64,000 bases of DNA. Source: an uncultured Clostridia bacterium (GTDB lineage: Bacteria; Bacillota; Clostridia; Oscillospirales; Ruminococcaceae). Positions 3,210-28,803 of this stretch are shown one piece after another. The notes beneath the pieces are model-generated. The model ran no database searches. It was not told the DNA's origin and worked only from the letters and a program-made list of their open reading frames with translations. The position numbers and the translations under genes are program-made. The stretch covers positions 554,981 through 618,980 of the forward strand of contig CAMVNQ010000001.1 in NCBI GenBank assembly GCA_947168885.1, given 5' to 3'. Position 1 is the first letter of the stretch. The number at the start of each line of letters is the position of its first letter.

Positions 3210-3237
3210 AAAGTTGCGGCGCGTAAGACGCGCCGCA
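3210..3237. repeat. GC-rich perfect hairpin
   Basis: TTGCGGCGCGTaagACGCGCCGCAA inside AT-rich sequence. Confidence 0.7.
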
Positions 3238-3291
3238 AAAAAGAAAAAAGGAAATGGGGTAACAAAGACAAACGAAATGATAATATGTCAC

Positions 3292-3418: not shown

Positions 3419-3708
3419 ATGAGATACTTAAAATGCCGGTGCGACTCCGGCACAAAGCGACAATTTTAATTTATAGTAAAGGGTGATTTGATATGTAATA
3501 CCAAAAAACAAAAAAATACAAAAACAGAAAGTGGGCGATAAAAATGCATCAACACAAAAAATCCTGTAACAGGAAGAACAGAGATTTATTGATATGGATG
3601 TTGATACTATATGCTAATACTCATACTGGCAAGTAATGCCAAAAACAAAAATTAAAAAAGAAAGAAGGTAAACGCCGCCGGGATATTACTTCCGGCGGTG
3701 AAAAAACT

Positions 3709-4755
3709 ATGGAAACAACAAATAACATTTTCACCCCAAGCATACTCCACGAGAGCACATCCAGTGCCACACAACTCTCATTGTCTTCAGAACTTTTCAG
3801 ATCCCGCAAGCTCTTTTTAATCGGCGATGTCAATGCAGAAAGCATGGGTACGCTGATGCAAGAATTAATGATCCTCGATGCGGAATCGAATGAACCGATA
3901 GAACTATATATCAATAGCGCCGGAGGAATGGTTACGAGCGGAATGGCGGTCTATCGGTATATGACTGAGCAGATGCAGTCTCCTATTCACACATACTGTA
4001 TCGGTATTGCTGCCTCTATGGCTGCAATCCTATATCTTGCCGGATCGAAACGATTTGTGTATGAAGGTACAAAAATAGTAATCCATGACCCATTAAGTAT
4101 TTCACCATCAAGCGAAAAACCCGACGAATTAAAAGACAGACTTACATCCCTCGAAAAGACAAAAGATATGATATGTCAAATTATATCTGATATAACCGAA
4201 CATCCGTTTGATGAAATAAGTAAAATAATCAAGACTGACAAAATTTATGATGCAAATGAGGCACTGGAGTTTGGGCTTGCAACCAACATTATAAAGAAAG
4301 AGACGACAAATTATCACAACAATCCCTTTGTATCCAGACCTGATGGCAGCCATGATACAAATAGAGGCTTACCGCCGCCGATGGAACGATATCAAGAAGA
4401 GTCAGCGTGGAAACCGAATCCCGGTGACATTATCATACCGGCTGTTCCAAAGTCTCTTCTGCATTTAAAGCGGAAAGATAATACAACGGTTTTCCGATTT
4501 GGTTTTTCTTATCGTTTCACCGATGACGGCCGACCCATATACGCGAATACTGATATTTTGCCATCGCAAACCCAATTTGATAATTTTAAGTACAATCTAA
4601 ATCTCGGAGCTGCCGATAAAACATACGATTGTGAATTGTCTGACGGCAGTGGTTCTGTAACCATGACCGCACTTGAGATCGGCAAACTTTTCAAGGTAAT
4701 TCGCGATAAATATTTGGCTAAAAGAGCAAGACGGTCGATTTTGTCAATCCGTTAA
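3709..4755 (+). CDS. ClpP-like serine protease with ~140-aa C-terminal extension
   Basis: LYINSAGGMVTSGMAVY, CIGIAASMAAILYLAG (Ser), IVIHDPLS (His), TDKIYDANEALEFGLA (Asp) match ClpP motifs. Confidence 0.88.
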   Translation: METTNNIFTPSILHESTSSATQLSLSSELFRSRKLFLIGDVNAESMGTLMQELMILDAESNEPIELYINSAGGMVTSGMAVYRYMTEQMQSPIHTYCIGIAASMAAILYLAGSKRFVYEGTKIVIHDPLSISPSSEKPDELKDRLTSLEKTKDMICQIISDITEHPFDEISKIIKTDKIYDANEALEFGLATNIIKKETTNYHNNPFVSRPDGSHDTNRGLPPPMERYQEESAWKPNPGDIIIPAVPKSLLHLKRKDNTTVFRFGFSYRFTDDGRPIYANTDILPSQTQFDNFKYNLNLGAADKTYDCELSDGSGSVTMTALEIGKLFKVIRDKYLAKRARRSILSIR

Positions 4756-4847
4756 CCTATATAACTTGATTCGGGCAGATGCGATAAATAGCATATGCCC
4801 GATTTAGATAACACTACATCTAACTATTAATATTATGAGGAAAAACT

Positions 4848-4961
4848 ATGAAAAAAATAGATATATTTTACAGCAAGCTCAAAAAAGACGACGCTCTTCG
4901 CGAGGAATTCATATCAGCATTAGCCAACGGATCTCTGCTTGATTTTTTCATATCTTTGTGA
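4848..4961 (+). CDS. 37-aa Nif11-like N-terminal segment, in frame with the downstream AAA+ ORF
   Basis: GAGGAAAAACTATG start; MKKIDIFYSKLKKDDALREEFISALANGSLLDFFISL* then in-frame YDFQISDLSALFDMLQERD (ATG 5001). Confidence 0.7.
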   Translation: MKKIDIFYSKLKKDDALREEFISALANGSLLDFFISL

Positions 4962-5000
4962 TATGATTTCCAAATTAGTGACCTCTCTGCACTTTTTGAC

Positions 5001-6824
5001 ATGTTGCAAGAACGCGATAAATCGCTGTTCGAGGACATCTCTATCGAATTGGAAGAGGATCCCGCTGTTGATATTCCTCCTGAGGTGTTGGACGATATGA
5101 TCTCTCCATTTCAAGAAGATTATATACCTCCTCCGGAATTTCTAATCAATTATAATGCAAAATTTAAAGGCAGTCAGCCAATCTTATTCAGGAATGAAAT
5201 CATTCGACAGGCCTTATCCTGCCTTATATTAAAAAATAAAGCAAATGTGCTACTGATCGGACCGGCTGGTGTCGGTAAAACAAAAATCGCAGAAGAGATC
5301 GCATGTATGCTCGCAGAGAATATCCCCTTGATCCCGCCGCAATTAAAAGGATATACGATCTGGGAACTGCCGCTGTCTGCTCTGATAGCCGGCTCAAATT
5401 TTGTCGGGGATGTCGAGAAAAAAGCAAATAGGGTTATAAACTTTGCGACTGACAAGAACAATAAGGTTATTCTATACATCGATGAGATACATGTCTTGCT
5501 CAGTGGTGACAGGTCATACGGAACTATAGCACAGATGCTTAAGCCTGCACTTGCACGTGGCAATATCCGGGTGATTGGTGCGACTACACTCCAAGAAGCT
5601 AATAATTATCTTAAAGATCCGGCTTTTAATCGGCGTTTTAACCGAATCATTGTTGATGAGCTGAGCAAGGAACAGACTAAAATCATACTTAATGAGATGA
5701 GCGCAGAGCTTGCCGAACACTATAACGGAATGATCACACTTGGACGAAAAGCAATCGAAACAGCTATTGATGCTGCTGACGAGTACAAGATAGCAGGTTC
5801 ACACCGACCCGATAATGTAATTACCTTGATCGACAGGACGATGGCAGATGTTTTTGTATCACGATTTGGATACATCAAAAACTCGATACGGATCACGCCG
5901 GCAGACATTAAAAGGACAGCACTAAAACTAACTACAGGTAATAACCATAAAGATCGTGTAGATATTGATACTCTACATGAAAAATTATCAGTTATAAAAG
6001 GTCAGGAAGATGTTATTGATTGTATTATCGATTGCATACAAAGAGACAGCCTCGAACTATTTCCGCGGAAAAAACCACTTACTTTGTTGTTTGCCGGTCC
6101 GAGCGGAGTCGGTAAAACCAAAACGGCTAGGATACTAGCGCAGGAACTTACCGGGAGTCAGCCAATAATTCTTAACATGACAGAGTTTGTACATGATTCA
6201 TCCATAAATCGCATTATAGGCTCTCCTGTCGGCTATGTTGGCAGCGATTCTAAAGCGGAGCTTCCGTTTGATATACTCGATTCCAATCCGTATCAACTGA
6301 TAGTTGTTGATGAGTTCGAAAAGGCTCATAAATCTGTACAAAGGCTGTTTATGAGCGTATTTGATAATGGTGTTTTGCAACTCGCCAATGGCAAAAGTGT
6401 TGACTTCTCAAAGTCAATCATAATCGCTACAACGAATGCTGGCTCTGCTGTTATTAATAATGCGATAGGGTTTAATACAGACGATACATACGCGCCCTCT
6501 GTAGTTGACCTCTCGCACAGTTTTGATATTGAACTTCTTAACCGTTTTACCAAGATATTGTACTTCTGTCCAATTTCTGAAAGCCTTTACAGAGATATAT
6601 TGCGTGAAAGATATGCGCGGGAGATCACTGAAATAAAGCGACAAGGCAAAGCAAACAGCAGTTTGCCGGATACCATTCCTGATGATGTGCTTGATAAGCT
6701 CGTTAACGATAGTTATAACTCGGCATTTGGTGCGAGACCTGCATCGCGGATCGTTCGTGCATACATCGAAAACCTGCTCATAGATGAGCGGAAAAATCTA
6801 ACTACTACGGAGAATGAATCATGA
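5001..6824 (+). CDS. ClpA/ClpC-like two-domain AAA+ unfoldase
   Basis: Walker A GPAGVGKTK and GPSGVGKTK; Walker B VILYIDEIH and LIVVDEFEKA; IGF motif at 6465-6473. Confidence 0.88.
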   Translation: MLQERDKSLFEDISIELEEDPAVDIPPEVLDDMISPFQEDYIPPPEFLINYNAKFKGSQPILFRNEIIRQALSCLILKNKANVLLIGPAGVGKTKIAEEIACMLAENIPLIPPQLKGYTIWELPLSALIAGSNFVGDVEKKANRVINFATDKNNKVILYIDEIHVLLSGDRSYGTIAQMLKPALARGNIRVIGATTLQEANNYLKDPAFNRRFNRIIVDELSKEQTKIILNEMSAELAEHYNGMITLGRKAIETAIDAADEYKIAGSHRPDNVITLIDRTMADVFVSRFGYIKNSIRITPADIKRTALKLTTGNNHKDRVDIDTLHEKLSVIKGQEDVIDCIIDCIQRDSLELFPRKKPLTLLFAGPSGVGKTKTARILAQELTGSQPIILNMTEFVHDSSINRIIGSPVGYVGSDSKAELPFDILDSNPYQLIVVDEFEKAHKSVQRLFMSVFDNGVLQLANGKSVDFSKSIIIATTNAGSAVINNAIGFNTDDTYAPSVVDLSHSFDIELLNRFTKILYFCPISESLYRDILRERYAREITEIKRQGKANSSLPDTIPDDVLDKLVNDSYNSAFGARPASRIVRAYIENLLIDERKNLTTTENES

Positions 6825-7090
6825 AATCAATAATTGGAAAAATCTATTATGGAGAGCTGCATCCATGTTCGGAACCGGCACCGCCTACGGAGACATACAT
6901 TAAAAACCGAAAGGCTATATGTGCAATTGAAGAAGAAATCCTGCAAAAATTTCCTGATTGTCGGGAATACCTCGACAGATATAAGGACGCACTCGGCGCG
7001 GAATCACAGTATGAGTCCGAGGCTGATTTTGTTCGTGGGTTCCGACTCGGTGCTCTTATTATGTATGAGATATTAAGTGACGATGATTGA
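6821..7090 (+). CDS. DUF6809-like small protein
   Basis: Overlaps the end of the AAA+ gene; clearly paralogous to 54519..54791. Confidence 0.65.
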   Translation: MKSIIGKIYYGELHPCSEPAPPTETYIKNRKAICAIEEEILQKFPDCREYLDRYKDALGAESQYESEADFVRGFRLGALIMYEILSDDD

Positions 7091-7942: not shown

Positions 7943-9916
7943 ATGAGCGATATAAACGACAATACTAACGATACATATGTATCACCGGCTACACCGGAAA
8001 TACCCATGCCCATCATGGACGATAATGACTTGCCTGCAATGATTAATAATAATGCTAATACTGGTAAGACCGCTGTATTATTGCCAATACAGTATAATCC
8101 GGACAATTATTATTGGCGTAATATGCGTACACATGGGGTGGACGACAAGGTGTATGCTGCTATCTGCGCCCCACTTAATAACATTGCTAAGGCGTTTTGG
8201 CTTGACGATACATTATACTATGTTGATGATAATGACAAAGCCAAACCTATATCTAATTTTTTAGCAGTACCTATCGAGGATGTTACTATCGACAATGGTA
8301 ATGATCAACAGCGCTATATCAGCGTCATCGCGTTAAAAAGTAATGATTTTGTTGTTGCAGAGCTGCCAAAAGTTACAATTAAGATGTCTGATCTTGCCAA
8401 GATGGATTGGGTTAATGACAAGTGGGGGTGTGATGCTATTATCTACCCACCATACTCATCCTGCAAAGACAAGCTGCGTAGTATCATGATGATGATTGGT
8501 GCGGACACTGCAAACAAAAAGACGATATACAAATACACCGGCTTGTGTCAGCACGACGGCACATGGTGCTACCTGATGCCCGGTCATGTTATCGGCACAG
8601 AGGGTGTCGATGTACAGCTTGACAGCCATCTGCAGCACTACCATTTCCCAGCTACAGATGTTAATAATGATGATCGTAACAATGCTTTACGCACAATCAT
8701 TAATGTAGCCGACAGACGTGTAATTATCCCTGTTTTGGCGCTCGTATTTTTATCACCTCTCAACGCATTTTTGCGGCAGATAGATCATGAGCCGTCGTTT
8801 GTGATGTATCTGGTCGGCAAAACACAGAGCCGCAAATCCACTCTTGCCGCATTAATGCTCTCGTTTTTTGGTAAATTTACGAGTACAACACTGCCTGCAA
8901 ATTTTAAGGATACCGTTAATGCCATTGAGGCTAAGGCTCATTTTATTAATGATGCTCTGATGGTAGTTGACGACTATCACCCCGGATCCTCCGCAGAGCG
9001 TAGGATCATGAATCAGACGATGCAGGCAATATCGCGTATGTACGGTGACCGCTGTGCCCGCGATAGATTAACTCCCACTATTGATCTGCGTCCGGGCAAT
9101 GTGCCGCACGGCAATGTTATAGTTACCGGCGAGGATATTGCAGATATAGGTCAGTCAGGCATTGCTCGCAATTTTATAATAGATATCCGTCCTGATTCAG
9201 TGCCGGTTGGCGACACGCTCAATTTGGCACAGGCGTATGCTGCAGACGGTACTCTTGGGGCAACTATGAGTGATTACATTGCACAGCTGCTCCCGCAGGC
9301 AGATGAGCTCCCGTATAAACTCAAAACAATGTTTGAGGCGTATCGCCAAAAGGCAATCGCAGAAAAAATAAGTGGTCTTGGCCGCACCGGTGACATAGTT
9401 GCATGGCTGATGGTCGGACTTGATATGCTCGCCGAGTATCTGCGTGTATGTGGCATCAATGATATTGATTTGTCTGACTCGTGGGATATCCTTAAGGAGA
9501 TTGCCGAGGCTCAGGTCAACATGTCCGATAATGTCACACCTACACAGATGTTTATTGATGGTGTCAGTCAGCTTATTGTAATGGGCAAGATCCACACCAA
9601 ATACATTGGGTTAATACCTCAGATAGATCCCGTCAAGGGCAAAAATGTCGGATACAGTGATGATGATAATTATTATTTTGTCCCGGCTACGATTTATGCC
9701 GAGATATGTAGGTATTATACATCGCAACAAATAACATATCCGATTAGTTGTCAACGGTTAATGCAGCAGCTTGCGGACGACAAGATCAGCATAACTAATG
9801 ATGGTCGCAACAACTATCAAAAACGCATAGGCAACACCCGTAACAGATACCTGTGCATCCCGCGTCAGTACATCGATGACCTGTCCGATGACCAGGACGA
9901 TAGAGATGTCACCTGA
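7943..9916 (+). CDS. DUF927-like/plasmid-type primase-helicase ATPase
   Basis: YLVGKTQSRKSTLAALMLSFFG Walker A, ALMVVDDYHPG Walker B; GGAGG upstream of ATG. Confidence 0.65.
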   Translation: MSDINDNTNDTYVSPATPEIPMPIMDDNDLPAMINNNANTGKTAVLLPIQYNPDNYYWRNMRTHGVDDKVYAAICAPLNNIAKAFWLDDTLYYVDDNDKAKPISNFLAVPIEDVTIDNGNDQQRYISVIALKSNDFVVAELPKVTIKMSDLAKMDWVNDKWGCDAIIYPPYSSCKDKLRSIMMMIGADTANKKTIYKYTGLCQHDGTWCYLMPGHVIGTEGVDVQLDSHLQHYHFPATDVNNDDRNNALRTIINVADRRVIIPVLALVFLSPLNAFLRQIDHEPSFVMYLVGKTQSRKSTLAALMLSFFGKFTSTTLPANFKDTVNAIEAKAHFINDALMVVDDYHPGSSAERRIMNQTMQAISRMYGDRCARDRLTPTIDLRPGNVPHGNVIVTGEDIADIGQSGIARNFIIDIRPDSVPVGDTLNLAQAYAADGTLGATMSDYIAQLLPQADELPYKLKTMFEAYRQKAIAEKISGLGRTGDIVAWLMVGLDMLAEYLRVCGINDIDLSDSWDILKEIAEAQVNMSDNVTPTQMFIDGVSQLIVMGKIHTKYIGLIPQIDPVKGKNVGYSDDDNYYFVPATIYAEICRYYTSQQITYPISCQRLMQQLADDKISITNDGRNNYQKRIGNTRNRYLCIPRQYIDDLSDDQDDRDVT

Positions 9917-10004: not shown

Positions 10005-10205
10005 ATGACCAAAGAAGAACTTTTGGAAAACTACAAAACAATCATCGATACCCAGTGTACGATCAACACCGATAAGTCCGTAGCAATACAAAAAGCATGG
10101 GATATGTGCATACTCTTAGGTAAACGTCACAGGTTTTGGGAACACATATACCTGGAATGCTGGTGCAAGGCTATGCAGGCTCGTGAGCGCAATGCAAAAT
10201 CGTAA
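10005..10205 (+). CDS. small hypothetical protein
   Basis: 66 aa, good RBS (AGAAGGAATT), between rep-like and recombinase genes. Confidence 0.5.
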   Translation: MTKEELLENYKTIIDTQCTINTDKSVAIQKAWDMCILLGKRHRFWEHIYLECWCKAMQARERNAKS

Positions 10206-10258: not shown

Positions 10259-10307
10259 GTCGCTCTAATAATATTTGTGTATGAAAACTAAGACAGAAAG
10301 TGATAAT

Positions 10308-11816
10308 ATGAAAGCAGTAATATACGCAAGATACTCATGTGATAACCAACGTGAGGAATCAATCGAAGGACAGCTCCGCGAGTGCCTAGCGTTTGCAGAT
10401 CGCAAAGGGTACACAGTCATCAAAACCTATGCAGACAGAGCAATATCCGGCAAGAAAGCCGAAAATCGTCCGGAATTTCAGCAGATGATAACGGACAGTG
10501 CAAGCGGAGAATTTGACATAGTTATTGTGTGGAAGATAGATCGTTTTTCGCGAGACAAGTATGATAGCGTGGTATATAAAACTAAACTTCGCAAAAACGG
10601 TGTCTCTGTAATATCGGCAACCGAACCTATTGACGATACCCCCGAAGGTAAGCTAATGGAATCTATATTTGAGGGCTTCTCGGAATACTATATTAAGGAT
10701 ATGGCGCAAAAGACTGGACGCGGTATGACGGAAAACGCTTTAAAAGGCACCTTTAACGGCGGTACGATAACCTACGGTTATACTATTGATAAAGACAAGC
10801 ATTTTCACAAAGATCCTGCAACAGCTCCTATCGTTTCTGATATTTTTGTACGTTATGCTGAGGGCGAGCCTATCCGCAGCATAGTTGATGAGCTTAACAG
10901 CAAAGGGATAAAAACTAACAACGGCAGAAAGATTACATACCATTTTGTAAACTGGCTTCTCAAAAATCGCCGTTATCTCGGCGAGTACACTTTTCGTGAG
11001 GTGATCAACACGGAAGCCATACCGCCGCTTGTTACTCACGATGTTTTTGAAAAATGTCAGAAAAGATTATCTGATAATAAGCATAAATCTGCCTCTTTCC
11101 GGAAATTTGATGAAAAATATCTGTTGACCCGTAAGGCGTTTTGTGGGTGCTGTGGCGATACAATGTCAGGTATCAGCGGCACAGGAAAAGACAACAGCCG
11201 TTACCGTTACTATCAGTGTATGACATCAAAGACAAAAAAATGTCATAAAAAACTGATAAAAAAGGATTTGCTCGAAAACAGCGTAATACAGCTGATAATG
11301 CAGTTGTTTAAAAACAAGTCGCTGGTCAAGCGTATCTGTGATACCTGTTATGCTTTACAGAGCACGGAAAGCACAGATCTCCCGGCGTTAAGAAAGCAGT
11401 TGAGTCAGAATAAGCGGGAAATAGCCAACATTATGAAAGCTGTTAAAGCCGGACTGGTCACAAAGTCAACCAAAGCAGAGCTTGAACGCCTCGAAGAAGA
11501 GCAGCAGCGAATTGAGGCGGAGATAACCAGGGAACAGATCGCCCGTCCGATCATTTCTCGCGATTTCATCGAATCATGGATCATGGGTTTTGCAAAGTCT
11601 AACCTTAAAAACCAGGAACAGAACCAGCGGCTTATCGACATTTTCGTTAACTGCGTCTATGTTTACGATGATAAAATCGTGGTCATGTTCAATTACAAGG
11701 ATGGGGAACGGGCTATTATGCTCGAAGATGTGGAAAAAGCTATGAAAAAAGAGAACACCCACCTTTGCAGTGAGTGTTCGTCTATGTTTAAGTCTGGTGA
11801 CCCGTACGGGAATTGA
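10308..11816 (+). CDS. large serine recombinase
   Basis: MKAVIYARYSCDNQREESIEGQLREC resolvase N-term; zinc ribbon FCGCCG...YYQCMTSKTKKC; coiled coil. Confidence 0.95.
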   Translation: MKAVIYARYSCDNQREESIEGQLRECLAFADRKGYTVIKTYADRAISGKKAENRPEFQQMITDSASGEFDIVIVWKIDRFSRDKYDSVVYKTKLRKNGVSVISATEPIDDTPEGKLMESIFEGFSEYYIKDMAQKTGRGMTENALKGTFNGGTITYGYTIDKDKHFHKDPATAPIVSDIFVRYAEGEPIRSIVDELNSKGIKTNNGRKITYHFVNWLLKNRRYLGEYTFREVINTEAIPPLVTHDVFEKCQKRLSDNKHKSASFRKFDEKYLLTRKAFCGCCGDTMSGISGTGKDNSRYRYYQCMTSKTKKCHKKLIKKDLLENSVIQLIMQLFKNKSLVKRICDTCYALQSTESTDLPALRKQLSQNKREIANIMKAVKAGLVTKSTKAELERLEEEQQRIEAEITREQIARPIISRDFIESWIMGFAKSNLKNQEQNQRLIDIFVNCVYVYDDKIVVMFNYKDGERAIMLEDVEKAMKKENTHLCSECSSMFKSGDPYGN

Positions 11817-12035: not shown

Positions 12036-12398
12036 ATGGGAAAAACAAATATTGACACAGTCAAGGAAAGAACCTATATTATCAATCATATCAAGATGTT
12101 ACTTGATCAACTCATTGAGCTTGAAAAGCTTGAAAATCCGGATATGACAATTGACAAGTCTCAAATCGAGAAACCTCAGGAAATGCCAAAGGCAAAACCC
12201 GGTGTACCGGTCATGCTTACTATCAAGGAATGCGTTGAGCAGTTCGATTGTCTCAAAGAGTTTACAGTTCGATGGCTTGTAAAGAACAATAAGGTTAAAT
12301 ATATAAGGCCAGGTGATACAGGCAAGGGTAGAGTGTTAATCAACAGAGACAGTATTGTTGAATATCTTGAATCGAAAAACAATAATAATTCAAAATAG
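12036..12398 (+). CDS. HTH/excisionase-type DNA-binding protein
   Basis: VMLTIKECVEQFDCLKEFTVRWLVKNNKVKYIRPG...VLINRDSIVEYLES. Confidence 0.65.
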   Translation: MGKTNIDTVKERTYIINHIKMLLDQLIELEKLENPDMTIDKSQIEKPQEMPKAKPGVPVMLTIKECVEQFDCLKEFTVRWLVKNNKVKYIRPGDTGKGRVLINRDSIVEYLESKNNNNSK

Positions 12399-12570: not shown

Positions 12571-12918
12571 TTATCCTTTGCCTGTATATCGTATGCCTTC
12601 CGTTATCACATTCCGATAATAAGGAAGAATGTCAGAATATCTTCTGAATTGTTCCAAAGGTTTTGCTGTAATTGAAACAGTAATATCATGTTCAAGGCTT
12701 AATTTGCTGTTAATAGCAGATACCTTGCTTCTGATCTCAGCAAGTGCTTCGAGATCCATATCAACGGTAACGAGGATATCAATATCACTCTCATCGTCAT
12801 AATCGCCGCGAGCGTAGGAGCCGTAAAGATAAACGTCTGTCAATTTATCGGCAAATAAATCGCTGCACATCTGATACGCTTGTGCAAAAATATCTAAAGC
12901 TTGATCCCTTGTACACAT
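12571..12918 (-). CDS. MNT-type nucleotidyltransferase
   Basis: DVYLYGSYARGDYDDESDIDILVTVD = GSxARG..SDID. Confidence 0.9.
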   Translation of the reverse strand: MCTRDQALDIFAQAYQMCSDLFADKLTDVYLYGSYARGDYDDESDIDILVTVDMDLEALAEIRSKVSAINSKLSLEHDITVSITAKPLEQFRRYSDILPYYRNVITEGIRYTGKG

Positions 12919-12968
12919 ATCCTTATTTCTTTCCGAATTGTACTTGACATAGTAAATGAATTTTGACT

Positions 12969-14144
12969 CTATTTTGCCAATTCTTTATAAGCCCTATTGT
13001 TTTTTGCCATAAAATGATCGGATATTGCTTTTACTTTCTCATCGGAAGCTGTCTCGATAGGTTCAGCCTCCAGTTCATCAAGAAGATGATCATCCGGAAT
13101 AGAACCGAACACATCGTTTTCAAAAGCACATTTTACCGAATCCGTGTTTCTTTTCAGGTAATCTGACGCAAAGACAGCGGAAACCTTGTATTTTCCGTTG
13201 TCTATTTCTTTTTTCAGAAATGCAAAGGAATGTTTCGGCAGATTCAGATCGAGCATATCGGTATTATGCGTAGTGAATATGAGCTGATCGTTCTTGCCAA
13301 GTCTTTCAAGCATCAAGCCAAATATCCGCTTTTCAATATCGCTTTGGATATATGAAAAATGTTCATCGCAATAATAGAAACTGCCGTTTGAGGATAGCAT
13401 TGAGGCAAGGAATATTGATACATCAATGCCCTCAGCGGTACCGCTTGAAAGAATATCCTTGTTCAGGAGCTTACCTTCCTGAATTATTATCTCCTGTCCG
13501 CGACGACGGATAATAAACGAGTCTTTCAGATCTTTTGCCATAGAAATATCCGTCAGAGTCGGATCGAGTGTTCCGATAACTGCCTGCAGAGTTTTAAGCA
13601 GGACTTCGTTTTTGATCTCTGATAGTTTCAGCGATCTTTCGATTTCCGGATACGCAAATCTGTAATTCAATGTACCGACAGCTTTTTTCAGCTTTTTAAG
13701 ACTGCCAGATATTTCATCTGAATGATCTTTCAGCTTTGAAACAGCCTTTTCGTATGAATCGCTAATCCCTATATCGGCGCTAAAATACTGTAATTCAACA
13801 TTCTGTTTGTTTACAGTACCGGATATTCTGTGCAGAGTAAAGCCCTCGTTGACAAAATCGACCTGAAAAGTCGCCGTAGCATCAGCGGACACAAGCTCTT
13901 TGAAATATGCCTCATTGGTCTCATTTAATGCATCGAATATTTTAAGGAGAGCTTTACCGAAGCTCGTCTTTCCGGCAGCATTGGCTCCCATAAGAATAAC
14001 AGCTTTCAGATAGCGGAAACGCTCGCGCCCGTCAAGATGTTCATCCTCTATAAGCGACCCTACGACTTTCTTCGGATAGGTGAAGTTGATATGAAAATTG
14101 TCGAAACCGTATATATTATTCAGCTTTACATCAAGAATTATCAT
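12969..14144 (-). CDS. AAA15-type ATPase
   Basis: VILMGANAAGKTSFGKAL Walker A; GSFYYCDEHFSYI; LIFTTHNTDMLD. Confidence 0.85.
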   Translation of the reverse strand: MIILDVKLNNIYGFDNFHINFTYPKKVVGSLIEDEHLDGRERFRYLKAVILMGANAAGKTSFGKALLKIFDALNETNEAYFKELVSADATATFQVDFVNEGFTLHRISGTVNKQNVELQYFSADIGISDSYEKAVSKLKDHSDEISGSLKKLKKAVGTLNYRFAYPEIERSLKLSEIKNEVLLKTLQAVIGTLDPTLTDISMAKDLKDSFIIRRRGQEIIIQEGKLLNKDILSSGTAEGIDVSIFLASMLSSNGSFYYCDEHFSYIQSDIEKRIFGLMLERLGKNDQLIFTTHNTDMLDLNLPKHSFAFLKKEIDNGKYKVSAVFASDYLKRNTDSVKCAFENDVFGSIPDDHLLDELEAEPIETASDEKVKAISDHFMAKNNRAYKELAK

Positions 14145-22241: not shown

Positions 22242-23582
22242 CTATTCCACATCACTTGCTTCAAGAGTGATTATCTGTGTATTTGTCGGAGACTTTAGAC
22301 CTGAAAGCTGGGAAACGTCATTACTTTTCCAGCTTATAATTTCTTGTTCTAATTTACAATTATTGTCTATCATATAATTTATAACATCAGAATATCTGCT
22401 ATCCTTTAGAGATTTAGCTTTATTTATATCGTTTGATTCAAGGCATTTTGTGTAATCATTGAATTCTATTAAGTCGGGTATTCCCATTCTGTATGGTTGA
22501 AAATCTATACCTGTTTGACGGCGGAGATTCTCTAGTATATGGAACCCGTCAGGATCAATATCTCCAAAATGATACCAGTTTTTATTTTTGTTAAAGGAGT
22601 GAATAAGCTGTAATAAGTTGTTTTTTGCTTTATTACTATACCCGCTAAGATATATTAAAAAAGTATCTTTCCCCTTTAATCTATTATAACTGGTAAGGTT
22701 TTCAACTGACATAATATTACTATCTAATATAGAAATATTACTTAAATCTGTAATTGTTTGTGAATTCAATGCAACAGGGATTTCTGGTACTAAAGTAATA
22801 CTATATCCGTTTCTAAATGAAATGACTCCGTTTCCTTTAAAATAAATATAGGTTGGGTTTTTTACTATATTATGATTTGACAACAACATGTCATACGATT
22901 CTTTTTTGTCGTCCCCATACAGTAAATCATCGGGCGTGTTTCCGTATTTTAGCAATAGGTTACATACTTTTGATTTGTACTTGTTTTCAAATACTTTACT
23001 ATCAGAAAAAACAGCTATTGAAAGTTCACGTTCAAGTATTTCATTTTTATTATCGACAATAAAAATAATACAATCAAGTATTTTTTGTAGTTCAGAAATG
23101 TCTTTTGAAATAGAATTGTCTTTGTTCATACCTAAACGTTTTAACTGATCAATACAAATCTTTTCTATTAAGCAGTCATGGCTTATGTATTTTTCAAACA
23201 CTGATCTCTGTAAAGAAAGACTATCCGTCCTGCTTGTCATTCCAAGAATTCTGCAGTATTCATTGTACATCTCATTTTTCATAACAATAGATACTATATC
23301 GCCGTTCTTTTTTTCTATTGTTATGTAGCCACTTTTTTCAAGTTCGCTAATCTCAATGTCATATTTTGTCTTCAAATCAACATCAAGATAATCAGAATTA
23401 TAATCGGCATACACCTCAATTGGCTTACATTTGAAGTGCTGAGTCACCTTATTATCACCCGAACACGTTTTACTTTGTTCATATTTTGACAGTAATATTT
23501 TGAGCAGTTGCTCTTGTTCAACTGTTAGTGAATTCACTGATAAGTCCCTCCACAGCATTTGTGTATCTACCTGTTTCAACAA
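22242..23582 (-). CDS. jetD: Wadjet JetD (Toprim-like)
   Basis: C-terminal NWYHFGDIDPDGFHILENLRRQTG; follows jetC. Confidence 0.88.
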   Translation of the reverse strand: MLKQVDTQMLWRDLSVNSLTVEQEQLLKILLSKYEQSKTCSGDNKVTQHFKCKPIEVYADYNSDYLDVDLKTKYDIEISELEKSGYITIEKKNGDIVSIVMKNEMYNEYCRILGMTSRTDSLSLQRSVFEKYISHDCLIEKICIDQLKRLGMNKDNSISKDISELQKILDCIIFIVDNKNEILERELSIAVFSDSKVFENKYKSKVCNLLLKYGNTPDDLLYGDDKKESYDMLLSNHNIVKNPTYIYFKGNGVISFRNGYSITLVPEIPVALNSQTITDLSNISILDSNIMSVENLTSYNRLKGKDTFLIYLSGYSNKAKNNLLQLIHSFNKNKNWYHFGDIDPDGFHILENLRRQTGIDFQPYRMGIPDLIEFNDYTKCLESNDINKAKSLKDSRYSDVINYMIDNNCKLEQEIISWKSNDVSQLSGLKSPTNTQIITLEASDVE

Positions 23583-26500
23583 GGCTTATGGTAGTATCAA
23601 TGTAACTGCCTATACTGTTTATTTTCTCCGGCGGTGCAGCATACATTACTTGAAATCCGTTTTGCTCAAAATATCTAACCATTTGCTCTATTCGTTCCTG
23701 ACTTAGCGCAGCAAATGCCTCATCAATAAATGCCAGCCTTGCGCATGAGCTTTTTTTAGGATAACACTGCATAAGACTCGCTGCAAGAATTATGAAATAA
23801 GGAGTTTGCTTTTCACCGTTACTTGCGGAACCCTGCTTCTCGGATAGATCGGCTTCAATATTCTCGAGCGTGTTTTCGATATTCATATCATATACACAGT
23901 ATGTGCGATAATCGGCATAGTCTTCATCACCAACATCACGCAATATTTCATCCATCAGTTCTCGAATATCATTTCTAAGTTCCTCATCTTCATAATTCTG
24001 AGCATAAGCATTTTCTACATTTAATTGATTGTCGTAAAGCTTCTTTTTAATTCTGAAAAATGTATCTTTATCCTTTCTGGGCTTTTTGGTAAATGAATAG
24101 ACATCCTGCCCGAATGGTAATGAGGATAGTTCTTTGTTTATTGCTGAAATTTCTGTGTCTGCATTATCAATGGCTTCACAAATTGCAGATACAAATTGTG
24201 TAATGAATGCATTCTCAAGTTTTTCTCGATGTTCATCAAGAGACTGTTTTACGGTTTCTGCATCAATATTGATAACTTTATCCCGTTCTTTGCGAAACTT
24301 GCCAATATATGATACACCACGTTCATCTGGATTGAGATCTGCCATCATGCAATACTTAATCTGTTCATTTTCCATCTCATTAGCAGCCTTATCCATTTCG
24401 CGCTTGTTGTCATCAATAGTACGTTGTGAAATTGCTTCACCTGAGAGCGAGCCTTTACTTTGACGTTCATATTCCTCGACAGCTTTTTTTCGAAGGTCCA
24501 TATGCATTATTATATATTTATCAAAAATATCCTTAGCATTCTTTTCAGCCTGTACGAGTTCGTCGGTCATTTGTTCAAGTTCTGATATAGTAGATATACA
24601 TTTTTGTTGATCCGAGAACAGTTTGATTTTATTTTTCTCAGCGTTTTTAAGTTCCTTTTCAGCTGTATCTACTTGACTTTTAAGTGCAGTAAACGTAGGA
24701 TTATTATTTTGTTCATCAAGTCTTGCACGTAAGTCAGCAATCTTTTCTTTTAATTCAGGGAGTTCTTTTATTGCTTCAAAACGAACATCTGCATCTATAT
24801 GAGTGGCTTCAAGTAATGCTATATTTTGTGACAAATTATCTACAAGATCAACTAATTCGTTAAGTGTTTTTTGATTTTCCTCACGTTCTGCTATATCTCT
24901 TTCAAGTTGTAATCTAATAGCTTCCTGACCAAGAAAATACTGCACTTTATCAAAAGACATGTTTCTTACTGTATATCCTTTTGCAAGTGTACCGTCTTTC
25001 ATTAATCCTCCCAGCGGATGGTCATGCAATTCGCTAAGGTTATTGCAAAGATAAATCTTTCCTAATAAATAATTAGCGTATTTTCTAGCATATATGTTTG
25101 GAATTTTTAAGAGCTCAGCAGCAGAATTGCCATCGACTTTGAAATCCTCAATCTTATCTGTCAAAACAAGATTTGGTTTTTTCAACTTTAGACGATGAAA
25201 TATATCTAATGCCATTCCTACATATTTTCCATCAATTATCAGATCGAATTTCTTATTACTAAGATATGTTTCTATTGCGTCTCTCCATTCAGGATCCGAA
25301 ACATCTTCAACTAGATCAGCAAAAATACGAACCCTTGCATCAATACCCATTCTTTCGAGTTCAGCATTTATAGAATCGCGGGCAGAAGTAACATAACCAG
25401 GATAGCTTCTTTGTTCACTTTCGCGAAGCTTTATCTGAATTCCTAGGTCTGAAAGATTATTTTGTACTGATATAATATCGTTTTCTGTTTCCCATTGTTT
25501 CTTCTTTAATTCATCAGTTTTTCCTTTTAGCTTATCTTTAATCATTTTAACAATATAGTATTTGTCATCTGAAGATGTTCTTACTTGATCAAGCGACTCT
25601 ATTGTTTCTTTAATTCTACGATCGATTTCTAAATAAGATAATGCACCTAAAATATTATCCTTCAATTCGGATATTCTAGCAATTTCTTTACCAGTTTCTT
25701 TTATCTTTGCTTCTGTTTCGGATATTTGTTTTTCGATATTATCTGCTATAGCAAAAAAATCACTTTTACGGTAAACATACTGTGCCTCTGTATATCTCTT
25801 CTGAGCTTCTTCATATTCGATATTAGCCCTGTCACATTCTCCAATTAAGCGGTTTAATGTTTCTTTGTTCTTCGTAATATTCTGTTGATTATTGAGGCTT
25901 TTTCTTTGACTTATAATATAATTCTGCCAGAACATCTCTGCACATTTAAGATCATAGAAATTAGACTTAGTCTCATATATTTGTGTCAATCGTTCTATTT
26001 CTTCGAGTTTTTCCTGCCTTTTCAATATACCATCGTATGTTTCACAAATTTTTTCAAATTGAGCTTTTAATTCGCGAAGTTCCGAAAGAGTTGTGATTTC
26101 TACTTCAGGCAGTACACTGTCACGAATAAATTTGTCAATGTTGTTTTCCGGCTGGAAGCACATCATTTTCATTAGTTTTCTGCGGTAATCATCTGAATTA
26201 TCACAACGAATACCAAGCGCACGTTGTATTTGAGCAACGCCTTTTTCTTTCTTCATGAAATCAACAGGTTTCAATCTGATACCATTTGCTTTTAGCTCGT
26301 TTTTAGGTGTCACAATCAGTTGATTTCCTGTTTTCTTATAAAAATCAATATCTGATATTCCAGCATCCTTTATAAGAAACCAATTTGATACATAGCTTCT
26401 TTCGTCGGCTGATTCTATACATACACCAACAGTAATATTAAATCCATCGTTTGGCGAGTAAAACTCCATGGCAATATAACTGATAATACTTCCTGTTCTT

Positions 26501-26781
26501 AGATATTGAGATTTTCCCTTACTTTTAGTGTCTCCTCTGACATAAGAAAGAACGTTTCTGTCTCTGTCATTAGCGGCTGTATTGAATTTGTTGTTTCCAG
26601 AGATGACATACGTTAATGCATCGAGCACCGTGGATTTTCCACTTCCGTTTACACCTGTGAACAATGTAGAGTTATTGATTTTCATTTCTACAGCGCCGAA
26701 TCTAGACCAATTCACAAGAAGTATCTTTGTAAGTGGCTTTCTGAGAAATTCAAATTGATTCATCTTCTTCACCATCCTCAC
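23518..26781 (-). CDS. jetC: Wadjet JetC (SMC/MukB-like ATPase)
   Basis: FTGVNGSGKSTVLDALTYVISGNNKFNTAANDRDRNVLSYVRGDT; long coiled coil; LAFIDEAFAALSQERIEQM. Confidence 0.93.
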   Translation of the reverse strand: MRMVKKMNQFEFLRKPLTKILLVNWSRFGAVEMKINNSTLFTGVNGSGKSTVLDALTYVISGNNKFNTAANDRDRNVLSYVRGDTKSKGKSQYLRTGSIISYIAMEFYSPNDGFNITVGVCIESADERSYVSNWFLIKDAGISDIDFYKKTGNQLIVTPKNELKANGIRLKPVDFMKKEKGVAQIQRALGIRCDNSDDYRRKLMKMMCFQPENNIDKFIRDSVLPEVEITTLSELRELKAQFEKICETYDGILKRQEKLEEIERLTQIYETKSNFYDLKCAEMFWQNYIISQRKSLNNQQNITKNKETLNRLIGECDRANIEYEEAQKRYTEAQYVYRKSDFFAIADNIEKQISETEAKIKETGKEIARISELKDNILGALSYLEIDRRIKETIESLDQVRTSSDDKYYIVKMIKDKLKGKTDELKKKQWETENDIISVQNNLSDLGIQIKLRESEQRSYPGYVTSARDSINAELERMGIDARVRIFADLVEDVSDPEWRDAIETYLSNKKFDLIIDGKYVGMALDIFHRLKLKKPNLVLTDKIEDFKVDGNSAAELLKIPNIYARKYANYLLGKIYLCNNLSELHDHPLGGLMKDGTLAKGYTVRNMSFDKVQYFLGQEAIRLQLERDIAEREENQKTLNELVDLVDNLSQNIALLEATHIDADVRFEAIKELPELKEKIADLRARLDEQNNNPTFTALKSQVDTAEKELKNAEKNKIKLFSDQQKCISTISELEQMTDELVQAEKNAKDIFDKYIIMHMDLRKKAVEEYERQSKGSLSGEAISQRTIDDNKREMDKAANEMENEQIKYCMMADLNPDERGVSYIGKFRKERDKVINIDAETVKQSLDEHREKLENAFITQFVSAICEAIDNADTEISAINKELSSLPFGQDVYSFTKKPRKDKDTFFRIKKKLYDNQLNVENAYAQNYEDEELRNDIRELMDEILRDVGDEDYADYRTYCVYDMNIENTLENIEADLSEKQGSASNGEKQTPYFIILAASLMQCYPKKSSCARLAFIDEAFAALSQERIEQMVRYFEQNGFQVMYAAPPEKINSIGSYIDTTISLVETGRYTNAVEGLISEFTNS

Positions 26782-27421
26782 CTATGGTATAACCATCTTG
26801 CGTCGCATTACGTTCTTTTTCTCTCATGCGCTGTGCAGTTGCTTCAGCAAGCTCTCGGAAATTAGATTCTGAAAGGCTGAATTGCATAGAAGTATACATT
26901 CGTATTTTACAGTCTGGTTCGCCAATTTCACCTATAACCTCTATGAGATTGTACGCCTCAAATAATTTTAGTATTTCCTTCATAGCGGTTTTGTCTATTT
27001 TATTTTTTGCACCAACTTTTTCAAGCTGGTAGTCAAGATCCGATTTGCTTATTATTATCGCCTTTGTAAGGCTTCCATTCACCATAGATTCTTCATACTT
27101 GAGCCATAAGGCGGCAAGAACTATGCTTTCAGACAACTTTAGACGTTTTCTGTTTGACTGGATACTACCATCCTCGCCTGCAGAAGCAAGATTTACAAGC
27201 TGCGCTACTCCAGACTCCGGGTCACACATTACATCATATCCAATAATTCTGAAATATTCGCTAAAAACAGACAGATTCTTTTTAACAAAATTGAAATCTT
27301 TTCTATGTTCATCATTCTTTTCTCTAACTATAAATGTCATTTTTAATAGTTTTCGACATATCTTTTGAAAAGAAGCTACTTCTGTGGAAGTGAAATCGTC
27401 AAGTTGTATCAGTCTGCTCAT
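26750..27421 (-). CDS. jetB: Wadjet JetB (DUF4194-like)
   Basis: Position and overlaps between jetA and jetC. Confidence 0.88.
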   Translation of the reverse strand: MSRLIQLDDFTSTEVASFQKICRKLLKMTFIVREKNDEHRKDFNFVKKNLSVFSEYFRIIGYDVMCDPESGVAQLVNLASAGEDGSIQSNRKRLKLSESIVLAALWLKYEESMVNGSLTKAIIISKSDLDYQLEKVGAKNKIDKTAMKEILKLFEAYNLIEVIGEIGEPDCKIRMYTSMQFSLSESNFRELAEATAQRMREKERNATQDGYTIGEDGEEDESI

Positions 27422-28803
27422 TTTTTTCCTCCGTTTTTGGAGATCGTAAAGTTACGTATAATAAAACCGTTACTCTCTATATAATCATCATTTGTTGTTA
27501 GATCAAATCCATTTTGGCGAGAATATGCAGCCGAGGAAATAATAGCGAGTATATCCGCTTTTCGTTCTGCTGGGAAGCTGTCTGCAGAGATCTCGGTTTT
27601 GTCACCCATAACAGACAGGACATACTCTTTCATTTTTTCTTTTGAAAAAGGATTGTTGACTTCTTTTCTTTGCTGTGCTGCAGCTCTGTTTATATCATCT
27701 TGTGTCATATCTGGCACTTCAGTAACCGTAGCATCCTTTATTATTTTCTGTTTGCCAGGAAATCTCAGAGACGCAGGATCAATAAATTCCTGTGTATAGA
27801 GATCATATAAATCACCGTATATATATTCGTCCTCACTGCCTAACGAATTTATCATAAGTTTAAGCACTTGTTGAACATTACCGCGCGTGTTATCATCGTG
27901 GCTAAGCAGAAAACGTGCTCGACCGACAGCAAGATTCAAGTAAATATTTATCTTTTTTTGAATATCATTTAAAATTTTATTATAATCATTACTAAGGAAT
28001 TTTACTGTCGCTTCAAACAAGCCAATTACGCGCTGCTCTGCGGAAATTTCATCATCCAATCCCTCGTTGTCAAAGCAGTCAATCACTATAAGCTCATACA
28101 AATCCTTGTCTCTACGCATCATCTCGAGTTCTTTCAGAATAGCAGGACGATAAATATGTATATTTTGTTCTTTTATTAAACGTGAGTACTCTTTAATAAA
28201 TGATCCTTCGCAATATGACATTAAATTGTTAGTTAATTCTTCAAGAGTTTCTTCTTCAACTATCTCCTCAATAATTGATCTGATAGATGTAGATAGTTTT
28301 TTTAAAGAATTAGCAAGTTTTTTTGCATCATTGTATATGGGTTTTAATGCAAATGTGTAAGGATTGCCAGCCCATTGATCTCGATTTCTCAGACGATTAT
28401 AGATATTAAACACATAAGATGAATACTCTTCTTTAGAAGGAGTTGAAAGCTGAATTAAAAATTCAGCAAGTGCAATACCAGCTTCTGTCATTACGACTTG
28501 TTTTTCATAAGTTACATCATCAGTTTCTTCACTGAGCCAACCAGCTTCATAGAAATTTCTTATAACAGCGCCAGCTCGATCGTTAGGAGAAACATCATTA
28601 TTTTCTTCCTGTTCGAGATTATAAGTCATAAGAATTGACGCTATTGTGTCACGAACTATGTCACGACTTATTTTATATGAAATTTCATTTTCAAAGATTC
28701 TGTATATTTCCAACAAGCAATCAGCGTTAATACGATAATTACTATTTCCGGCTAACAAATTAAAGAATCTTTCTGGGATACGATCAAAAACATTTATTCC
28801 CAT
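27418..28803 (-). CDS. jetA: Wadjet JetA
   Basis: 461 aa, first gene of the jetABCD order. Confidence 0.85.
   Translation of the reverse strand: MGINVFDRIPERFFNLLAGNSNYRINADCLLEIYRIFENEISYKISRDIVRDTIASILMTYNLEQEENNDVSPNDRAGAVIRNFYEAGWLSEETDDVTYEKQVVMTEAGIALAEFLIQLSTPSKEEYSSYVFNIYNRLRNRDQWAGNPYTFALKPIYNDAKKLANSLKKLSTSIRSIIEEIVEEETLEELTNNLMSYCEGSFIKEYSRLIKEQNIHIYRPAILKELEMMRRDKDLYELIVIDCFDNEGLDDEISAEQRVIGLFEATVKFLSNDYNKILNDIQKKINIYLNLAVGRARFLLSHDDNTRGNVQQVLKLMINSLGSEDEYIYGDLYDLYTQEFIDPASLRFPGKQKIIKDATVTEVPDMTQDDINRAAAQQRKEVNNPFSKEKMKEYVLSVMGDKTEISADSFPAERKADILAIISSAAYSRQNGFDLTTNDDYIESNGFIIRNFTISKNGGKK

Follow-up and report, generated by a model that had tools for sequence, protein, structure and literature searches.

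A divergent ClpP beside an N-domain-less ClpA-like ATPase on a small integrated element: a candidate element-encoded protease

Mobile elements usually borrow the Clp machine of their host, whereas an element that brings both chamber and motor could control how stable proteins are without depending on it. The combination of a ClpP and an unfoldase on a mobile genome has precedent and is not a new category: Bacillus phage G carries adjacent genes for a ClpP-like (gp257) and a ClpX-like protein (gp258). Agrobacterium phage Atu_ph07 encodes ClpA (gp292), ClpP (gp676), ClpX, ClpB and ClpS (PMC6102473). Here, we describe a 64-kb stretch of DNA from an uncultured Clostridia bacterium of gut type (positions 554981-618980 of contig C1 in a 3.78-Mb genome; hereafter, the window), in which a small integrated element with a Rep ATPase and a serine recombinase also encodes a divergent ClpP and, directly downstream, a ClpA-like AAA+ ATPase. 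From sequence comparisons, we put the probability that the element carries its own ClpAP-type protease close to, and just short of, even.

The element resembles phage G in having neighbouring genes for ClpP and an unfoldase, but phage G is a 500-kb lytic phage with a single-ring ClpX-type unfoldase and a canonical ClpP that lacks a C-terminal domain and is 29% identical to the element's. As in Atu_ph07, a ClpA-type AAA+ protein with an IGF loop and a ClpP are found in one mobile genome; however, Atu_ph07 is a jumbo phage, its clp genes are unlinked and its AAA+ protein, ~765 aa long, is 34% identical to the one studied here. The pair shares with Escherichia coli ClpAP the order of the two AAA modules, the IGL/IGF loop and the ClpP triad, and differs from it by the absence of the Clp N-domain and of the ClpP motif RGER, by the C-terminal domain of its ClpP and by having no ClpS seen nearby. 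Orthologous AAA+ proteins, likewise N-domain-less, are present on plasmid pGKT2, plasmid pGS01 and a plasmid of Streptomyces NBC_01454, in Arthrobacter and on the IMG/VR contig IMGVR_UViG_3300021431_004083, but those lie inside an operon of MoxR, VWA-like, AAA+ and UvrD genes and have no adjacent ClpP. Our literature search turned up no direct account of a ClpP on plasmids, of DUF6809 or of a defence system built on Clp.

The ClpP of the element and its C-terminal extension

The open reading frame (ORF) at 3709-4755 (+) encodes a 348-aa protein that was assigned to the ClpP family by Pfam, sequence alignment, AlphaFold2 and comparison with ClpP structures in the PDB. It matched the Pfam CLP_protease model at 2e-40, and the Ser/His/Asp triad named in the original prediction was recovered as Ser103 (4015-4017), His126 (4084-4086) and Asp177 (4237-4239), aligning to S97, H122 and D171 of E. 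coli ClpP. AlphaFold2, run on a 60-row alignment, modelled the core with a predicted local distance difference test (pLDDT) score above 90, and a Foldseek search with the model returned ClpP structures (5dkp with E ~1e-19 and a template modelling score of ~0.93, normalised by target). By sequence and predicted fold, the protein is a real, very divergent and catalytically complete ClpP.

The divergence is considerable. The protein scored 98.5 bits against TIGR00493, the equivalog model for housekeeping ClpP, whose curated cut-off is 308.6, and was 26-35% identical to 13 compared ClpPs and 38-39% identical to the protein of the best viral contig. In phylogenetic trees, its branch was 2.2-3.0 changes per site long, and its placement was impossible. 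The N-terminal axial-loop motif RGER is missing, with SSAT in its place, as is the GG-QA handle motif. The host genome has a canonical ClpP of its own, which is ~30% identical to the element protein. On this identity, and as the AAA+ protein belongs to a separate subfamily, we ruled out that the genes are ordinary clp paralogs, in agreement with the original view of them. We also ruled out a phage head-maturation protease as the closest reading: ClpP models gave 135 bits and head-maturation models 72-77 bits, and no capsid or portal genes were recognised beside the gene.

From residue ~205 onwards, the protein continues into an extension of ~150 aa (4321-4752, +), predicted to consist of a linker and a β-β-β-α-β-β-α domain at residues ~249-347. 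AlphaFold2 gave the linker low confidence and the domain a pLDDT of 73-80 at residues ~301-340; a single-sequence model of the domain reached a pLDDT of 49, showed the same order of elements and was not used for fold search. The extension had been announced as ~140 aa long and novel, and our searches agree: it had no relative among 394 genomes of the order, no Pfam or PHROG match up to E=10 and, among phages, none up to E=1, and none of the phage or plasmid alignments to the ClpP reached past residue ~261. One candidate, a DUF4376-like domain, was rejected, as the Pfam search up to E=10 gave no match to it; no DUF4376 member with which to compare it directly was found in 80 relatives.

The ClpA-like ATPase and its plasmid relatives

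The ORF at 5001-6824 (+) encodes a 607-aa, two-ring AAA+ ATPase of the ClpA/C-like kind foreseen in the original prediction. Its best equivalog model was ClpA (TIGR02639; 7e-101), and the score of 338.6 bits is below the curated cut-off of 993.15. E. coli ClpA aligned to residues 49-594 in a single continuous piece, from which we infer that both AAA rings are present and that there is no middle domain. Walker A (5259-5282 in the D1 ring and 6096-6119 in the D2 ring), Walker B, sensor 1, arginine fingers, sensor 2 and an aromatic pore loop in the second ring (GYVG) are all in place. Fewer than 50 residues precede D1; Clp_N gave no match among the 25 families listed, and for a Nif11-like N-terminus no match was found either.

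The IGF tripeptide at 6465-6473 (+; residues 489-491), proposed earlier to occupy the site of the ClpP-docking loop in the D2 ring, was placed by HMMER alignment on I617-G618-L619 of E. coli ClpA. Paralogs from the same genome served as a control: at this site the two ClpC-type proteins have GMGF and SFGF, and the ClpB-type protein has GINEN and lacks the loop. The alignment, this control, the conservation of the loop in five orthologs (below) and the intact AAA+ motifs together argue that the docking-loop claim is right. On this comparative evidence, the IGF is not a chance tripeptide, and the loop discriminates the ClpC-type paralogs from the ClpB-type one.

The two genes are adjacent and codirectional, the ClpP stop codon being 245 bp from ATG 5001 and 92 bp from another ATG at 4848. 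The latter start, missed in the original prediction, is preceded by a Shine–Dalgarno (SD)-like AGGA and shares the frame of the AAA+ gene, and its translation (4848-4961, +) is closed after 37 codons by a TGA at codon 38 (4959-4961); no SD-like sequence precedes ATG 5001, the following start in this frame. The TGA is either a nonsense mutation, an assembly error or the end of a 37-aa leader, and since all AAA+ motifs are 3' of it, the AAA+ core is intact whichever applies. Read as a nonsense codon near the start of the gene, it would make the pair decaying cargo that no longer works in this strain, a reading with which the very long branch of the ClpP is also consistent. We consider such decay improbable: 607 further codons are open with every ATPase motif intact and all domains 3' of ATG 5001, the ClpP, DUF6809, Rep and recombinase genes are intact as well, and the TGA could come from an assembly error or split a leader ORF from the gene.

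In a tblastn search of plasmids, three proteins were clearly nearer to the AAA+ protein than any housekeeping Clp, from Streptomyces (44% identity), Rhodococcus (42%) and Gordonia pGKT2 (42%). A genome scan added an ortholog in Arthrobacter (46%), and IMG/VR contained the nearest one (48%) on the 251-kb contig IMGVR_UViG_3300021431_004083. These five orthologs, with identities of 42-48%, have no Clp N-domain, and all five keep [IL]GF at the docking-loop site. In samples of 394, 399 and 299 genomes from the order, phylum and family, respectively, we found no other clear ortholog; two weaker matches in the family sample, ~790 aa long, are by their length longer Clp ATPases. The gene order was the same in all five ortholog loci (L138:4861-12535, L054:4646-13247, L050:4657-14609, L051:4424-13982 and L052:4420-14159), with a MoxR-type ATPase, a VWA-like protein with the motif DTSGSIS and no Pfam match, the AAA+ protein and a UvrD helicase. 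This operon, of which we found no description in the literature searched, looks like a plasmid DNA-metabolism module. The MoxR, VWA-like and UvrD partners were found neither in the window nor in the upstream stretches fetched.

Judging by these relatives, the AAA+ protein of the element is a member of an N-domain-less subfamily, considered rare and mostly plasmid-borne because of the few orthologs in the samples and their plasmid loci, and not a stray housekeeping ClpA. By its gene neighbourhood, it has in the window left the MoxR operon and now stands beside a ClpP. Both the rarity of the subfamily and the plasmid operon around it hint at a remodelling module encoded by plasmids. The 251-kb contig is filed as viral and, by reading of its sequence, encodes dockerin-like proteins and a TraG/VirD4-like fragment; it looks more like a conjugative megaplasmid and is probably clostridial.

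Partnership, substrates and competing explanations

In the proposed mechanism, the AAA+ hexamer would dock onto the element ClpP through its IGF loops and thread substrates into the chamber. Whether the two proteins form one protease appears to us evenly balanced. The original prediction spoke of a self-contained degradation machine; a ClpP and an AAA+ protein with a docking signature are indeed encoded on the element, while their being self-contained is only plausible. A canonical ClpP is encoded on the 251-kb contig at 137.1 kb, on the same strand as the AAA+ gene and 19 kb from it, and AAA+ and ClpP thus occur on one molecule in two of the five records compared, the window element and this contig, the other three records being the actinobacterial plasmids. 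Co-occurrence of the genes is thin.

Several observations weigh against a joint protease. The adjacency of ClpP and AAA+ was seen once, in the window; around the other AAA+ loci fetched, no ClpP was found at a distance of up to 8 kb, and the three complete actinobacterial plasmids carrying the AAA+ gene encode no ClpP. In the ClpP itself, the oligomerisation-sensor pair of the tetradecamer (Asp/Glu-Arg before the catalytic Asp) reads K175-T176, and two of the eight docking-cleft positions derived from E. coli are polar (Y60 to E65 and F82 to Q88), the other six being hydrophobic or aromatic. To these are added the in-frame TGA that follows ATG 4848 ahead of the AAA+ body, and a substrate that is purely inferred. 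In a different division of labour, the AAA+ protein would use the host ClpP, or would remodel DNA–protein complexes with no peptidase at all, and the element ClpP would be an accessory protease acting independently, its neighbour by chance. The host has a canonical ClpP available as partner, the cleft and sensor of the element ClpP are weakened, and on the three plasmids the AAA+ protein retains an xGF loop within the MoxR–VWA-like–AAA+–UvrD operon where there is no ClpP. However, the element ClpP is encoded directly 5' of the AAA+ gene in the same orientation, a second contig has both genes, and a ClpP needs an unfoldase to degrade folded substrates. We consider this alternative somewhat unlikely.

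If the element ClpP and AAA+ protein do form one protease, substrate choice would have to lie outside the Clp N-domain, as the AAA+ protein has none, and could come from its short N-terminus, from the C-terminal domain of the ClpP or from an adaptor. The C-terminal domain could also replace the lost axial-loop motif, serving as a gate, scaffold, tether or recruiter; it offers a way to ask if gating or recruitment can be built into a ClpP as a domain of its own. The likeliest substrates would be the replication and recombination proteins of the element, a suggestion drawn from the neighbouring genes only: sister AAA+ proteins are encoded on plasmids together with UvrD and MoxR/VWA, and the one studied here is encoded upstream of Rep. 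A possible model is the turnover of an initiator or a nucleoprotein complex, on the pattern of lambda O and its degradation by ClpXP (discussed in PMC6102473). We give this substrate class a probability far below even. The complete scenario, in which an N-domain-less plasmid ClpA-like ATPase, normally part of a MoxR–VWA–UvrD module, has been paired with a divergent ClpP bearing a new C-terminal substrate-handling domain into a private machine controlling the replication complex of the element, is in our estimate unlikely.

The original prediction had also raised anti-phage defence or host takeover. The element lies beside paired genes for an AbiL-like ATPase and a nucleotidyltransferase, and the window contains further genes of the defence type, but PADLOC, which gave no specific match, had none for the ClpP, DUF6809 or Rep proteins and, for the AAA+ protein, only cross-hits to other AAA+ models. 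There is no sensor gene and no recurrence in defence islands, and the relatives are found in plasmid DNA-metabolism operons. A defence or takeover role is thus very unlikely.

The rest of the element and its surroundings

The ORF following the AAA+ gene (6821-7090, +; 89 aa) encodes a true DUF6809 protein (match at 2.6e-18), as had been suspected. It overlaps the AAA+ stop codon by ATGA and, because of this overlap, is probably cotranscribed with the AAA+ gene. The host genome contains 18 DUF6809 matches, and the copies inspected were located beside integrases or unrelated genes, none of them beside clp genes; the AAA+ orthologs lack ClpP and DUF6809 neighbours. DUF6809 is a widespread mobile-element gene and not the cassette signature it was taken for.

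Farther downstream on the same strand are the Rep ATPase and the serine recombinase that were predicted to accompany the pair. The former (7943-9916) is a DUF927/primase-helicase-like protein matching a PHROG DNA primase/helicase at 2e-5, and the latter (10275-11816) is a large serine recombinase with Resolvase, Recombinase and Zn_ribbon domains; between them is a 66-aa ORF of no family (10005-10205), and an excisionase-like helix-turn-helix protein, scoring below curated cut-offs, follows (12036-12398). With a site-specific recombinase and a replication gene, the locus classifies as an integrative mobile element. Neither its ends nor end repeats were found; serine recombinases need no such repeats. 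Among plasmids, the nearest recombinase was a 44% homolog on a Subdoligranulum plasmid, where the other genes of the element are missing. A 47% homolog of Rep is encoded ~40 kb upstream on the same contig (G000:C1:521075-522781; L169:12950-14785), in an integrated element of the mobilisable type, whose relaxase-like protein and tyrosine integrase were named from sequence reading, and related Reps are present in three other genomes of the family. Scans of viral contigs with single proteins found nothing.

The 1.3-kb non-coding region 5' of clpP contains 44-bp direct repeats, two exact copies and a partial third (2498-2602), which are iteron- or operator-like and of putative function. A GC-rich, strong 11-bp hairpin at 3214-3238 is terminator-like on the minus strand. 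Between GAAGG and the start codon of clpP, within 3664-3711, is a very stable hairpin, an 11-bp RNA stem-loop at 3673-3700 (+) with a folding energy of -20.8 kcal/mol and a z score of -4.9, which could place a distant ribosome-binding site beside the start codon. Rfam gave no match.

The following genes outside the element are on the minus strand. On its 5' side, HipA-like and HipB-like genes were recognised by sequence reading only (1-1466); adjoining its recombinase end are the nucleotidyltransferase and the AbiL-like ATPase (12571-14144; PADLOC AbiLi, 4e-27). A four-gene run at 22242-28803, encoding proteins of 461, 223, 1087 (SMC-like) and 446 aa, looks like Wadjet/JetABCD by gene sizes and order.

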